From positions 1-64,000 of the forward strand of contig VGPU01000008.1 of the NCBI GenBank assembly GCA_016882525.1: a DNA stretch of 64,000 bases, written 5' to 3'. Shown in pieces: positions 48,030 to 53,798 of the stretch (its first letter is position 1; the number at the start of each line of letters is the position of its first letter). This DNA is from Cyanobacteria bacterium M_surface_10_m2_119. GTDB taxonomy: Bacteria > Cyanobacteriota > Cyanobacteriia > PCC-6307 > Cyanobiaceae. The notes under the pieces are model-generated. The model had not been told where the DNA came from. It saw only the letters and a program-made list of their open reading frames with translations, and searched no databases. Position numbers and translations under genes: made by a program.

Positions 48030-49240
48030 CCCAAAGTGTCTGCGCCCGCGTCTGTGTGGCTGATAGCGGACTGGCCGTCGCCGCTTGCGGCGGCCAGCGC
48101 CACCTCCTGCTCGGCCATGCGCTGCGCCTCGGCGCTCACGATGGCGGCAATGGCCTGGCCGCTCTGGTGCAGCTCCAGCCAGCGCATGGCCTGGTTGCCG
48201 TGCCGCAGCACCTCGTGCAGGGGGGCCAGCACGGTGGTGAGCCCCCAGCACTCGGCCAGGGGTGCGAGCTCCCTGAGGGCCAGCTCCAGCCATGTGCGGC
48301 AGCTCAGGCTGCGGCCGTCGCGCCAGTGCACGAGCTTGGCCTCGAGGCTGTGGCGGGCACAGGCCTGGTCATTGCGGTCCGCCAGGGCCGCCAGCTGCCC
48401 GGCCCCCAGCACACTGGCCTGCAGCGGATCCCAGTGATCCGGATCCTGCACCAGCTGGTGCAGACGCAGCTCGGCGAAGGCGGTGATCGCCAGCAGCAGG
48501 GCCGGATCGCTCACCAGATCGCAGATGCGGATCTCCAGCCTGTTGAGGTCGTGGGGGCGATCGTCCCCGTTCGGCCGCACCGACGTCCAGAGATGGCGCA
48601 CGTTCTGCATCGTGCCAGCAGCCAGCTGCTGCTCCATCCAGTCCACATAGTGCGGGTGGCTCTCAAACAGCGGCACCTCGGTGGGGGTGAGGGGGAACTG
48701 CAGCCAGCGCTGGGAGTGGGCCCCGCAGACCTGCCCATCGAGGAAGGGGGAGCTGGCGCTCAGGGCCAGCAGCAGGGAGGCTTCGCAGCGCAGCAGCCGC
48801 AGGCCTGCGAAGAGCATGGCCATGCCCTCGAAACCGCTCCCGGGGGTGAGGCCCAGGTTGATGTGCACGCTCGCGGTGACCACCCGGGTGCCATAAGTGG
48901 TTTCGATGTAGCCGTGGTACGGGTTCAGGGGGTCGGAGCGCTCGAAGCGGTGGCTGTCGCCCGTGCTCAGGGTGCTGCCCGGCAACAGGGTGAGACCCCG
49001 CTCGGCCAGCCAGGGGCGCAGCCGCTGGCGCGGCTCGAGCAGCAGCTGGAGCTGGCGGTCGTAGGCGGCCGCCGGTGGGGTGACGTATTCCAGGTTGCGG
49101 TGGTCGGGCTCGGTGACGAAGCCCGGGAGCGCGGCCGCCACCTCGGCACTGCAACCCACCACCGTGCCGTCGGGCCGGCAGGTGAACAGCTCCACTTCGA
49201 AGCCCTTCAGGAGCTGGGGGGGCATGGCGGAACGGCTCAC
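48026..49240 (-). CDS. gshA: Cyanobacterial-type glutamate-cysteine ligase
   Basis: A 404-residue enzyme of the cyanobacterial GshA family, for the first step of glutathione synthesis. Family marks are [43 protein letters not shown] and [19 protein letters not shown]. It starts either on GTG at 49240, overlapping the trpE stop by 4 bases, or on ATG at 49225. It is tied to ppc by another 4-base overlap. Confidence 0.93.
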
Positions 49241-50763
49241 TGCAGGCAGGCCAGGGCCTTGAGCATGCCCCGGGCCTTGTTGAGGGTTTCCTGGTGCTCG
49301 GCCTCGGGCACCGAATCGGCCACCACACCCGCACCCGCCTGCACCTGCACCCGCCAGCCGCCCTCGGGGTGGGGCAGCACCACCATCGTGCGGATGGTGA
49401 TGGCGGTGTTGAGGGCCCCGGCCAGGTCGACCGCTCCATACACCCCCGAGTAGGGCCCGCGGGCATCGGGCTCCAGCTCATGGATCAGCTGCATGGCCCG
49501 GATCTTTGGCGCACCGCTCACGGTGCCGGCGGGGAAGGAGGCCATCAGCAGGTCCCAGACGCTGCGGCCTGGCGCCAGCCGGCCCTCCACCTGGCTCACG
49601 ATGTGCATCACGTGCGAGTAACGCTCGATCACCATCAGGTCGCTCACGGCCACAGTGCCCGGCTGGCACACCCGGCCCAGGTCGTTGCGGCCCAGGTCCA
49701 CAAGCATCACGTGTTCGGCGCGCTCCTTGGGATCGGCCAGCAGATCGGCCTCCAGCGCCCGATCCTCCGCCTCGTCGGCACCGCGGGGCCGGGTGCCGGC
49801 AATCGGCCGCAGGGAGGCCCTGATGGTGCCGTCCGCGAGCGGATCGGCCTTCACCATCACCTCGGGGCTCGAGCCGATCAGATACCAGCCTCCGAAGTTG
49901 AAGAAGGCCATGTAGGGGGATGGGTTCACCATCCGCAGGCTGCGGTACAGCTCGAAGGGGTCGCGCTGCACGTGGCTCTCCAGTCGCTGGCTCAGCACCA
50001 GCTGGAAGACGTCGCCGGCGGCGATGTGTTCGCGGGCCGTGGCCACCGCTGCCTCGAAGTCGGCCTGGCCTCGGTTGCTCAGTGGCTGCAGCCGCTCCAC
50101 GATCTCGCTCGTGGGGGCGTCTTGCCATTGCAGGGGGGTGACGCCCGGTGGCAGGGGCGCGTGCATCCGGGCCTCCAGGGCGGCAATGCGCGCCTGGGCC
50201 GCGGCATAGGCCGTCTCCGGATCCGCGCCGTTGCTGAGGTCGGCGTAGGCCACCGCCGTGATCTGGCGCTTCACCTGGTCAAACACCAGCAGGCTGTCGG
50301 CCAGCAGCCAGCAGCCATCGGGGGGTGCCCCCGCCGGTGCCGCATGCACCGGCACGCTCGGCTCGATCCAGCGGATCAGCTCGTAGCCCCAGAACCCGAA
50401 CAACTGACCCACCGGCGGCAGGCCCGGCACCGGCGCGCTCCGCAGGGGGGTGAGGCACTCCTGCAGCAGGGCAAAGGGGTTGCCGCTCAGCTCCTCCTGC
50501 TGGCCATCGCGCCAGTGGCGCACGCTCTGATCGCCCCGGGTGGTGAGGGTCCAGAGCGGGTCGGCGACGATGAAGCTCCAGCGGCCGATGCGCTCGCCTC
50601 CCTCCACCGATTCGAGCAGCACGCCATGGCTGCTCTGCGCTCCCACCTTCAGCCAGGCGGTGAGGGGGGTCTCCAGATCGGCAGGCCAGCGCCTCCAGAG
50701 CGGGATGAACGTATGGCCGGCGGCCACCTGGTCGCGGAAGGCCTGATCCTCGAGATGGGGCAT
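49237..50763 (-). CDS. trpE: Anthranilate synthase component I
   Basis: A 508-residue chorismate-using enzyme for the first step of tryptophan synthesis. The C-terminal domain has SPYMAFFNFGGWYLIGSSPEVMV, RPIAGTRPRGADEAED and TVSGAPKIRAMQLIHELEP, and the N-terminal regulatory part holds LLESVEGGERIGRWSF with the LESx feedback site. It is the first gene of trpE-gshA-ppc. The inner ATG at 50763 is used; the frame upstream is not TrpE-like. Confidence 0.96.
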   Translation of the reverse strand: MPHLEDQAFRDQVAAGHTFIPLWRRWPADLETPLTAWLKVGAQSSHGVLLESVEGGERIGRWSFIVADPLWTLTTRGDQSVRHWRDGQQEELSGNPFALLQECLTPLRSAPVPGLPPVGQLFGFWGYELIRWIEPSVPVHAAPAGAPPDGCWLLADSLLVFDQVKRQITAVAYADLSNGADPETAYAAAQARIAALEARMHAPLPPGVTPLQWQDAPTSEIVERLQPLSNRGQADFEAAVATAREHIAAGDVFQLVLSQRLESHVQRDPFELYRSLRMVNPSPYMAFFNFGGWYLIGSSPEVMVKADPLADGTIRASLRPIAGTRPRGADEAEDRALEADLLADPKERAEHVMLVDLGRNDLGRVCQPGTVAVSDLMVIERYSHVMHIVSQVEGRLAPGRSVWDLLMASFPAGTVSGAPKIRAMQLIHELEPDARGPYSGVYGAVDLAGALNTAITIRTMVVLPHPEGGWRVQVQAGAGVVADSVPEAEHQETLNKARGMLKALACLQ

Positions 50764-51001
50764 CGCGGTCGCGATCACTGCGCAGGTGTGCCTGAACTGG
50801 GCCTGGTGGTGCAGGCGGACGGGGGCGATCCGGTCAGAACCTCGGCCTCCGCGGGAGATGGGTGCCGCGGTGGGACAGCTCCATGGGACTGGGCGGCGGA
50901 AACCTGCGCCGGTTGGCTGGATCCTAGCGATGGCCTCTCCGGGCTCCCCTAGCCTTCTTCTCCAACGACCACGCGACCGAGCCCGTCGCCCCCGAGGTTC
51001 C

Positions 51002-51682
51002 ATGACGGTGTCGCCCGACGGCCTGCCCCGTGTAGTCGCCATCGGTTTCAACAAGTGCGCCACCCGCAGCCTGGCGCGCCTGTTTGCCCGCTCCGGGCAT
51101 GCGGCCGTGCACCAGAAGCTGCCCGGACGCTGGCGCCGCAGGCGCAAGCTCGGCGGCATCATGCGGGCCAACCAGGTGGCCGGTCGGCCCGTGTTCAGCG
51201 GTGTGGAGCAGTTCGTCTTCTATGGCGACCTGATCGACAGCAACCGCCGGGGCACCTTCGACGGCAACAGCCTGTTCCGCGAGATCCTGCGCGACTACCC
51301 CGACACGATCCTGCTGCTGAACTGGCGCGACCGGGAAGACTGGATCCGCTCCCGGTTGCGCCATGGTCACGGCGAATTCGCCGCCCGGGAGCAGCGCCTG
51401 CGCGGCCTGGCCAGCCAGGGGGCGCTGTGCGAAGAGTGGCGCCAGGAGTGGGATCACCATCTGGCCGCGGTGCGGGCCTTCATGGCCGACCGTCCCAGCC
51501 AATTGCTGGAGTTCAACATCGACACCGATCCGATTGCCGGCCTGATCGCGCGGCTGCCCGCCTACCGGCTCGAGGCCGCTCACTTTGAGGACATCGGCCG
51601 CAGCCGCGGGCGCCGGCTGCCGGCCTGGATCGAGGCGACCAAGGCCTGGATCGCCCACCACCGCCCTCGCGCCCAGCGCTGA
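51002..51682 (+). CDS. Sulfotransferase-like protein (first of pair)
   Basis: A 226-residue protein with a PAPS-type P-loop, VAIGFNKCATRSLARLF at about residue 12, and a weaker 3'-phosphate region, ILLLNWRDREDWIRSRL, near 100. This is the layout of small bacterial and eukaryotic-like sulfotransferases. No signal or membrane segment is seen, so it would act in the cytoplasm on a carbohydrate or lipid precursor. It is followed 4 bases later by a second sulfotransferase, so the two form an operon. Confidence 0.75.
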   Translation: MTVSPDGLPRVVAIGFNKCATRSLARLFARSGHAAVHQKLPGRWRRRRKLGGIMRANQVAGRPVFSGVEQFVFYGDLIDSNRRGTFDGNSLFREILRDYPDTILLLNWRDREDWIRSRLRHGHGEFAAREQRLRGLASQGALCEEWRQEWDHHLAAVRAFMADRPSQLLEFNIDTDPIAGLIARLPAYRLEAAHFEDIGRSRGRRLPAWIEATKAWIAHHRPRAQR

Positions 51683-51686
51683 TCCG

Positions 51687-52448
51687 ATGATCCTCTCGGA
51701 GCGCCATCAGCTGATCGTGCTGCACGCCCGCAAGGCTGCGGGCAGTTCGCTGTGTGTGTCGCTGGCGCGCAGCCTCGGTGCCGAGGATCTGCAGATCAGT
51801 GCCCTGCCGGAGACGATGGCCCTGGGCATTCCCCTCACGGATCGGGTGCGCCGGGTGGCCCTGCGCCAGAGCCGCCATCTCCTCCCGCTCTGGCGCCTGC
51901 TGGGGCCCGGGGCCTACCGCCGTGCCCTCACCCGGGCCGTCGACCATGCCCACCGGCCCCTGTTGGGTCGCAAGCCCCCCCACGCCCCGGCAGCCCGGGT
52001 TGCTGCGGCCTTCCCCGATGCCTGGAGCCGCTTCCGCAAGCTGGTGATCGTGCGCAATCCCTGGGACAAGACCGTCTCGGACTACTTCTGGCGCATTCAG
52101 AACTGCCGGCGACCGCCCAGCTTCGCCACCTATCTGCAGGCCCTGGCCGCCGGCGATGCTCTGGGCGGCATCGTGCCCCTGGCCTTCCACGACAACTGGC
52201 CGATGTACACGATCGAGGATCGGGTGGTGGCTGACACGGTGGTGCGCTTCGAGCAACTCGAGCCAGGCCTGGGGCAGTTTTTCCGCGAGGCGGGCATCGA
52301 CTGGGATGGCTGGCTGCCCCGCTCCAAGGGCGGGCATCGCCCGCGGGGCGCCGCCGGCGGCTACCGCAGCTACTACAGCCCGGAGCTGGAGCGGCTGGTG
52401 GGCCGGCTCTACGCCCGTGAAATCGACCACTTCGGCTATCGCTTCTGA
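51687..52448 (+). CDS. Sulfotransferase family protein (second of pair)
   Basis: A 253-residue protein of the carbohydrate sulfotransferase-2 type. The 5'-phosphosulfate loop is LIVLHARKAAGSSLCVSLA (about 8-26), and the 3'-phosphate motif is KLVIVRNPWDKTVSDYFW (about 116-133), both well kept. The C-terminus YYSPELERLVGRLYAREIDHFGY is typical for this family. It overlaps nothing and converges with the GT92-like gene, 15 bases away. Together with its neighbours it suggests a sulfated surface glycan. Confidence 0.82.
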   Translation: MILSERHQLIVLHARKAAGSSLCVSLARSLGAEDLQISALPETMALGIPLTDRVRRVALRQSRHLLPLWRLLGPGAYRRALTRAVDHAHRPLLGRKPPHAPAARVAAAFPDAWSRFRKLVIVRNPWDKTVSDYFWRIQNCRRPPSFATYLQALAAGDALGGIVPLAFHDNWPMYTIEDRVVADTVVRFEQLEPGLGQFFREAGIDWDGWLPRSKGGHRPRGAAGGYRSYYSPELERLVGRLYAREIDHFGYRF

Positions 52449-52463
52449 GCGCCCGGCACTCCG

Positions 52464-53318
52464 CTAGGCCTGTCCCACCCGTGCCAGGAAGCGCAGGGCG
52501 CGCTGATCCTCCTGGGTGGCGGTCTCGATGCGGGCCACCGTGCGCATCACCTTGCGGCGGTAGGCGTCCCGTTTGGCGTCGAGGTTGGGGCCGCGGCCGA
52601 TCTTCTCTTCCAGTTCTTCACTGGAGCGGGTGTAGTAGTGATTGAGCTGCAGATGCTCGGCGGCGTAGAAGCTGGCCTGGCGGCGCTGCCTCAGGGGCAC
52701 GGCCTCCCCGCGGTCGTTCCAGGTGAGGGCTGGCCGGCCGGTGTCCATGCTGTGCACCCGCACCGCCCGGAGCCGGCAGGGATCCACCAGGCACTTGAAG
52801 TTCACGCCCTGCATCGGGTCGCTCGCCCGCAGCCGGTAGTTGGCCACCACGCCGCCGCTGGGGGGCTGCTGGTGGCCGCAACGGCCGAACATGTGCCAGG
52901 GCAGGGACACATTCACCACCTCAGGCCCGAGGTGGGCCAGCGCCGCATCCACCGATGCCGCCTGCACCGGCACCAGGAATTCATCGGCGTCGATGCAGGC
53001 CAGCCAGCGGTAGGCCCCCCCGAAGTTGGCGGCGGCATGGGCATAGGCCAGCACCTGGTTGTGGATCGGCCGGCGCAGCTGGCGGTCGCTCAGCCGCTGG
53101 CCCCAGGGGATCACCGTGAGGCGTTCGGCAGACAGCTCACGCCGCAGCTCCGCCACCGTGCCATCGCTGCTGGCATCGTCGTAGGCGATCACATGGCGGA
53201 CTCCTGCGAGCCGGTGAAAGCGGGCCCACTCGCCGATATGCCGCTCCTCGTTGCGCACCACCAGGGCGATGGCCAAGCCGTGGCGATCACACAAAGGCCG
53301 GGGGGGCACAAGCCCCAC
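52464..53318 (-). CDS. GT92/DUF23-like glycosyltransferase
   Basis: A 284-residue GT-A enzyme. Marks: LAIALVVRNEERHIGEWARFH, AYDDASSDGT and CIDADEFLVP (DxD and the acidic pair), and a C-terminal LNHYYTRSSEELEEK, which fits the GT92 / DUF23 pattern. The start is GTG at 53318; the upstream frame is open for 16 more codons but has no standard start before a stop. It lies 48 bases after psaD on the same strand, with no convincing terminator between, so psaD read-through could express it. Confidence 0.82.
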   Translation of the reverse strand: MGLVPPRPLCDRHGLAIALVVRNEERHIGEWARFHRLAGVRHVIAYDDASSDGTVAELRRELSAERLTVIPWGQRLSDRQLRRPIHNQVLAYAHAAANFGGAYRWLACIDADEFLVPVQAASVDAALAHLGPEVVNVSLPWHMFGRCGHQQPPSGGVVANYRLRASDPMQGVNFKCLVDPCRLRAVRVHSMDTGRPALTWNDRGEAVPLRQRRQASFYAAEHLQLNHYYTRSSEELEEKIGRGPNLDAKRDAYRRKVMRTVARIETATQEDQRALRFLARVGQA

Positions 53319-53350: not shown

Positions 53351-53369
53351 TGATCAGGGTGACTGATCA
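53351..53369 (-). promoter_or_regulatory. Hairpin covering the psaD stop codon
   Basis: A 7-bp stem (TGATCAG/CTGATCA) with a 5-nt loop includes the psaD stop codon. No T-run follows on the minus strand, so it is at most a weak terminator or an RNA-stabilising end. Confidence 0.4.
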
Positions 53370-53798
53370 GGCGTCGAAGGTGTTCTTGCCGGAGAACTTG
53401 AGGTTGGCAGGGTTGGGGTTGGCGCCGATCCGGCGGGGGTTGTGGCCCACCATCGCGCGGCCTTCGTTCACCTTTTCAGGGAACACGCCATCTTTGGGGT
53501 GCAGGAACTCGGTATCACCCCCGGGGAAGATCCGGTAGATCTTGTAGTCCTCGATGCGGGGCTTGAACTTGGTGCGCAGCTGGGTGCCGAGGGCCAGGCA
53601 CTGCTCCTTGCGGGCGAAATACATGATGTTTTCGCCTTCGTTCATCTCGGCAGCGCCGCCGGTGGGCAGTTCAAAGGCCTGGGCCTTGCTGCTGGTCCAG
53701 GTGATGGCGTATTTCTCTTCGGTTTCGGCGGCATTCAGCAGGCCGCCCGTGCTGCCGATGTACTTGGGGAGTTGACCGCTCAGCGCCGTTGCTGTCAT
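53367..53798 (-). CDS. psaD: Photosystem I reaction centre subunit II
   Basis: PsaD (143 aa) is the stromal ferredoxin-docking subunit of photosystem I. It has [44 protein letters not shown] and the C-terminal [18 protein letters not shown]. It lies 151 bases downstream of the atypical kinase gene and may have its own promoter in that gap, where a TTGACG stands alone without an obvious -10. Confidence 0.97.

Follow-up and report, generated by a model that had tools for sequence, protein, structure and literature searches.

Gene content of the trpE–psaD locus

The window, i.e., the whole 64,000-nucleotide stretch of DNA analysed here, belongs to a Cyanobium-type genome (G000; 2.62 Mb in 118 contigs) and contains two sulfotransferase genes (ST1 and ST2) and a glycosyltransferase gene (GT92) between trpE and psaD, hereafter called cassette A (Table 1). 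The three reading frames and the 4-base gap between ST1 and ST2 stood as initially annotated, and the frames were conserved in ten carrier genomes, across which the protein identity was 64–80% (with ST2 frameshifted in one of them, G283). The two sulfotransferase genes are joined by an ATGA overlap in five other species, and ST1 and ST2 make up a tight operon. The flanking psaD was single-copy in all 13 genomes of the genus.

Table 1. Features of cassette A and its flanks in the window, with one gene of a separate island of genome G007 (locus L214).
Feature	Position	Strand	Description
trpE	49237..50682	-	Left flank, housekeeping; PF00425 E=6.4e-87, PF04715 E=6e-21
trpE/ST1 divergent intergenic region	50683..51001		ST3 position in six other carriers
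ST1	51002..51682	+	Sulfotransfer_4-kind sulfotransferase, 226 aa; PF17784 E=6.8e-6
ST2	51687..52448	+	Distant Sulfotransfer_2 relative (carbohydrate sulfotransferase-type), 253 aa
GT92 (DUF23-like) glycosyltransferase	52464..53318	-	284 aa as called; PF01697 E=6.3e-17
psaD stop codon and 9-nt in-frame spacer up to the GT92 CTG	53358..53369	-	
psaD	53367..53798	-	Right flank, same direction as GT92; PF02531 E=1.5e-71
G007 GT8-Sulfotransfer_4 fusion	L214 11552-12874	-	

The start of GT92 probably lies upstream of the annotated GTG, at a CTG at position 53357, which is in the same frame as psaD and 9 nt past its stop. Homologs begin with MLNAILQR..., the window reads LINSLLQR... from this CTG, and the resulting N-terminal extension, which gives a protein of 297 aa, is conserved in homologs. 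A terminator of psaD was present in 7 of the 10 carriers and was found by the scan at four of the five empty sites described below; it was absent in the window, G283, and G406. The lost terminator and the 9-nt spacing make co-transcription of GT92 and psaD by read-through likely in the window's genome, an arrangement that is not general among the carriers. The 9-nt spacing is common to the window, G283, and G406 (L208 and L209), which the flank-gene tree sets apart. The same scan found no terminator at the convergent GT92/ST2 junction of the window.

Family and fold assignment of the cassette A proteins

ST1 matched the Pfam family Sulfotransfer_4 (PF17784) with 26.5 bits against a cut-off of 22.8, over residues 11–118 only, and its GFNKCxTRS and NWRDRExWxRS motifs were invariant or nearly so across eight species. 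The GT92 protein matched Glyco_transf_92 (PF01697) with 62.5 bits (cut-off 23), and its DxD-type motif, DADEF, was invariant in eight. Characterised GT92 enzymes add galactose, and those members are eukaryotic. ST2 reached 14.1 bits against Sulfotransfer_2 (PF03567), below the curated cut-off of 22, and was therefore examined by fold; its relative from Sinorhizobium cleared the same cut-off at 63 bits, and ST2 is thus a divergent relative of Sulfotransfer_2. For the cassette A proteins, the NCBIfam profile search gave no match and the PDB sequence search no significant match.

An alignment of 17 homologs showed that ST2 carries the 5'-phosphosulfate loop and the 3'-phosphate-binding RxxxxxxxS motif, with K16, G19, S21, R123, P125, and S131 of the PAPS motifs RKAAGSS and VRNPxxxxxS invariant. 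The AlphaFold2 model of ST2, built with 17 sequences, had a pLDDT of 90.5, and a fold search placed heparan sulfate 2-O-, 6-O-, and N-sulfotransferases on top (Z 9.7–9.0), followed by cytosolic SULTs (8.4). All of the matches listed were of the sulfotransferase fold, including StaL, Teg12, and a retinol dehydratase of that fold. Heparan sulfate 2-O-sulfotransferase (4ndz and 3f5f; Z 9.7, rmsd 3.8 over 178 residues) shares the PAPS sulfotransferase fold with ST2, although it is an animal Golgi enzyme with 12% identity to ST2. The modelled fold confirms ST2 as a sulfotransferase and, because the lead of the heparan enzymes over the SULTs is small, no more than hints at a glycan substrate. A grouping of the sulfotransferases with enzymes of known non-glycan substrates, which would have spoken against the initial annotation, did not appear, although the ST2 fold ranking favours glycan enzymes only weakly.

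Distribution of cassette A

ST1, ST2, and GT92 were found together in 8 of the 13 genomes of the same genus (Cyanobium), in one order and at the trpE–psaD site throughout. The other five (G002, G003, G006, G007, and G009) had empty sites, with a psaD–trpE distance of 182–212 bp and without convincing cassette remnants. Two further carriers (G283 and G406, the latter being Cyanobium usitatum Tous) belong to a second genus and also carry cassette A between trpE and psaD. In a sample of 400 genomes of the family, ST2 was present in 10, and GT92 was present in exactly those ten and in none else. Cassette A is considered accessory because of its whole presence or absence, its fixed site, and the clean empty sites. 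The expectation that trpE and psaD are neighbours in relatives was thus borne out by the five non-carriers, and the reading of the three genes as an accessory cassette rather than a universal feature of the clade was upheld, all three genes or none being found at one site.

A third sulfotransferase gene, ST3, lies between ST1 and trpE in 6 of the 10 carriers (G004, G008, G011, G012, G283, and G406); ST3 of G004 matched PF03567 with 92.7 bits, and that of G283 is damaged. The carriers without ST3, including the corresponding interval of the window, showed no convincing ST3 remnants. The dN/dS ratios of the cassette A genes among carriers were 0.13–0.31 (0.13–0.16 for ST1), similar to those of trpE (0.15–0.23), and therefore purifying selection acts on the cassette A genes. 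On the flank-gene tree, the presence pattern requires at least three changes, as counted by eye.

A second cassette near mnmG

A second ST2 relative, 32–37% identical, was found in every same-genus carrier and, among non-carriers, only in G007. In the carriers, it is part of a three-gene islet near mnmG (cassette B), which consists of an ST2-like sulfotransferase (ST2b), a glycosyltransferase (GTx), and a sulfotransferase of the Sulfotransfer_3 family (STc). Cassette B immediately follows mnmG in G004, G005, G011, and G012 and is one gene further away in G000, G010, and G283. GTx had no Pfam match by sequence; the model of its Albidovulum homolog (AlphaFold2, 84.2) showed a GT8-type fold with LgtC as a match (Z 16.9, rmsd 3.8 over 219 residues), which indicates that GTx is, as modelled, a GT-A-fold enzyme of the LgtC/glycogenin type.

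All nine of the 400 family genomes in which GTx was found are cassette A carriers, and the 390 genomes without cassette A yielded no GTx. The tenth carrier, G001, has a GTx that is truncated where its contig ends. The non-carriers lacked cassette B, and G007 has mnmG, the gene after it, and a ubiC-like gene in direct succession. The assembly of the window's genome has two mnmG genes: contig C66 carries cassette B and agrees with the relatives of the host, and contig C22 (L333, C22:1-15000) contains a more divergent mnmG-ubiC-ligA region and is probably a contaminating picocyanobacterial contig.

Homologous loci outside Cyanobium

Beyond Cyanobium and the second genus, the closest homologs found were those of the alphaproteobacterium Albidovulum inexpectatum (58, 59, and 59% identity for ST1, ST2, and GT92, respectively). 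As in cassette A, ST1 and ST2 are adjacent in the same order in this locus (L082) and GT92 is convergent to them. A 46% identical GTx homolog sits between ST2 and GT92, such that the homologs of ST1, ST2, GT92, and GTx lie within 4.2 kb, and a Stf0-type fragment adjoins GT92. The upstream genes encode a Poly_export (Wza-type) protein, a Wzx-type flippase, two GT2, and one GT4. The Albidovulum locus thus differs from the cyanobacterial arrangement in that all of these parts are in a single Wza/Wzx-containing locus, whereas cassettes A and B occupy two sites. ST2b and STc had no close counterpart in the Albidovulum locus, and no published function was found for it. Genes for ParA, ParB, and a DnaA_N-containing replication-type protein are nearby, and therefore the contig is suggested to be a plasmid.

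On pSymB of Sinorhizobium (L180), a GTx homolog (43%) lies close to a GT92 homolog (46%), and a relative of ST2 (33%) is found approximately 14 kb away in the same locus, which also contains CMP-KDO synthetase, KpsF, lipopolysaccharide (LPS) glycosyltransferases, and a pyruvyl transferase. This KDO/LPS-type locus differs from the cassettes in having no ST1 and many extra genes. The GTx family (e.g., L210:6303-7121, L082:11768-12577, and L180:8589-9422) is common on Sinorhizobium pSymB and has relatives in viral contigs. Its members are common in alphaproteobacteria, some of them alone and outside glycan clusters, and the Albidovulum GTx is therefore weaker evidence than the ST1-ST2-GT92 trio. 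In addition, the non-carrier G006 has an accessory island (L215:2914-12601, G006:C1) with ST1-like, GT92-like, and GT2 genes adjacent to one another.

A proposed two-locus pathway for a sulfated glycan

We propose, with a probability of roughly 0.68, that cassettes A and B together form a two-locus accessory pathway for a sulfated cell-surface or released glycan. A single shared pathway is favoured because the two cassettes show exact co-presence and co-absence and because their homologs occur together in Albidovulum and, for GT92 and GTx, side by side in the Sinorhizobium locus. The co-occurrence represents few independent gains or losses: on the flank-gene tree, the two cassettes changed together at least three times, as counted by eye. 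Each cassette pairs one glycosyltransferase with two or more predicted sulfotransferases (ST1, ST2, and, in some carriers, ST3 in cassette A; ST2b and STc in cassette B). Each glycosyltransferase would act in the cytoplasm and add a sugar to a core glycan or a lipid-linked oligosaccharide, the two of them extending or branching a surface glycan, and the partner sulfotransferases may next transfer sulfate from PAPS onto that glycan. An APS kinase, the source of PAPS, is present in the window's genome. Flipping, polymerisation, and export would be handled by the general polysaccharide or LPS machinery of the cell, and no Wzx/Wzy/PCP, flippase, polymerase, or export genes were recognised around cassettes A and B.

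The initial annotation had suggested glycan sulfation on a product made elsewhere. The analogous context of the Albidovulum exopolysaccharide-type and Sinorhizobium LPS-type loci, as well as the modelled ST2 fold, lends support to the first part, and the second part is strengthened and made specific because an unlinked second cassette co-occurs. We tentatively suggest, as a possibility somewhat short of even, that the division of the pathway into two unlinked islets at psaD and mnmG, which are gained or lost jointly, ties the expression of a sulfated cell coat to photosystem and housekeeping transcription.

The acceptor may specifically be LPS, through its core sugars or those linked to lipid A, and not an exopolysaccharide that is released; we regard this as a serious though not the favoured option. 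The position of the Sinorhizobium homologs beside CMP-KDO synthetase and KpsF is in line with it, as is an analogous island of the cassette-negative G007 (L214:10034-14997; G007:C1:2.954-2.959 Mb), which separates lpxK from the gene for a DUF374 acyltransferase within an MsbA-type/LpxB/LpxK/DUF374 locus and contains ST2-like, Sulfotransfer_1, GT8-Sulfotransfer_4 fusion, GT2_4, and GT4 genes. Sulfated LPS is known in S. meliloti, whose LPS sulfotransferase LpsS belongs to the Stf0 family (PMC12445080), the type of the fragment beside the Albidovulum GT92. LpsS itself is not of the family of ST1 or ST2. The G007 island, however, is made of other genes than cassette A (its ST1 part is 23% identical), and by far the closest homologs, those of the Albidovulum locus, are accompanied by Wza and Wzx genes, which are typical of exopolysaccharide.

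Ordinary vertical inheritance with repeated loss, with cassettes A and B functionally unlinked, appears improbable. The topology of the flanks was not rejected by the cassette data (AU p=0.108), and recent foreign DNA was rejected by composition, ST1, ST2, and GT92 being equal to their neighbours in GC and GC3. Decay was also observed: ST2 of cassette A is frameshifted in G283 (L208:7939-8696), and ST2b is fragmentary in G406, C. usitatum Tous (L325:8875-9283). The best topology of the cassette itself was, however, rejected by the flank data, and from this asymmetry, the cassette may have been inherited vertically and lost in some lineages or may have been exchanged among related genomes, recent transfer within Cyanobium included. 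The proposed function would be compatible with vertical inheritance, and the link between A and B stands on their exact co-presence and co-absence and on the joint Albidovulum homologs.

Slightly less probable still is that the sulfotransferases modify a non-glycan small molecule or a glycolipid that is glycosylated by GT92. Bacterial sulfotransferases of the same fold act on antibiotics and lipids, as StaL and Teg12 in the ST2 fold search recall, but no biosynthetic genes for such a compound were found near cassette A, the homologs are grouped with polysaccharide genes, and two separate glycosyltransferases take part.

A phage-derived or currently mobile island is very improbable: despite the fixed insertion site, the trio that is 58–59% identical in another phylum, and the sulfotransferases on many phage contigs, scans of the phage and viral collections gave no ST1 match, the viral ST2 relatives were at most ~32% identical and came from other arrays, no integrase was found among the ORFs of the filled site, and the empty sites consist of a short intergenic stretch only. 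Four IMG/VR contigs (L156, L160, L161, and L170) have several sulfotransferase-like genes within approximately 16 kb, with six or more in L156 and also a GT92-like match in L161.

Significance and comparison with synechan biosynthesis

The carriers of the proposed two-cassette pathway are some freshwater and soda-lake picocyanobacteria that are close relatives, some of which are isolates; cultured carriers include Cyanobium sp. CH-040 and ATX 6A2. What is new here is the strict presence or absence at a fixed site, the co-occurring cassette B, and the locus in another phylum that unites the parts. A pathway that is clustered in one phylum can thus be scattered in another as islets beside housekeeping genes, with co-occurrence still exact. 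Sulfated bacterial polysaccharides have seldom been traced to genes, and the compact, present-or-absent gene set makes surface sulfation in picocyanobacteria testable, together with any consequences for how phages bind, for grazing and aggregation, and for survival in lakes that are alkaline or saline.

We found nothing relevant on Cyanobium sulfotransferases in the literature, and the main worked cyanobacterial example found was synechan, which is made by the xss cluster of Synechocystis 6803 (eLife 2021, PMC8205485). Cyanobacterial sulfotransferases are reported to be mostly located in polysaccharide clusters (PMC8205485), and the islets linked to housekeeping genes therefore represent a different organisation. 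The xss genes form one large megaplasmid cluster (xssA–xssS) with Wzx/Wzy/PCP genes, regulators, eight glycosyltransferases, and two sulfotransferases, whereas the Cyanobium cassettes, as small islets, occupy two housekeeping sites and lack export genes. In both systems, sulfotransferases of distinct subfamilies (two in xss) work, or in Cyanobium would work, with glycosyltransferases.
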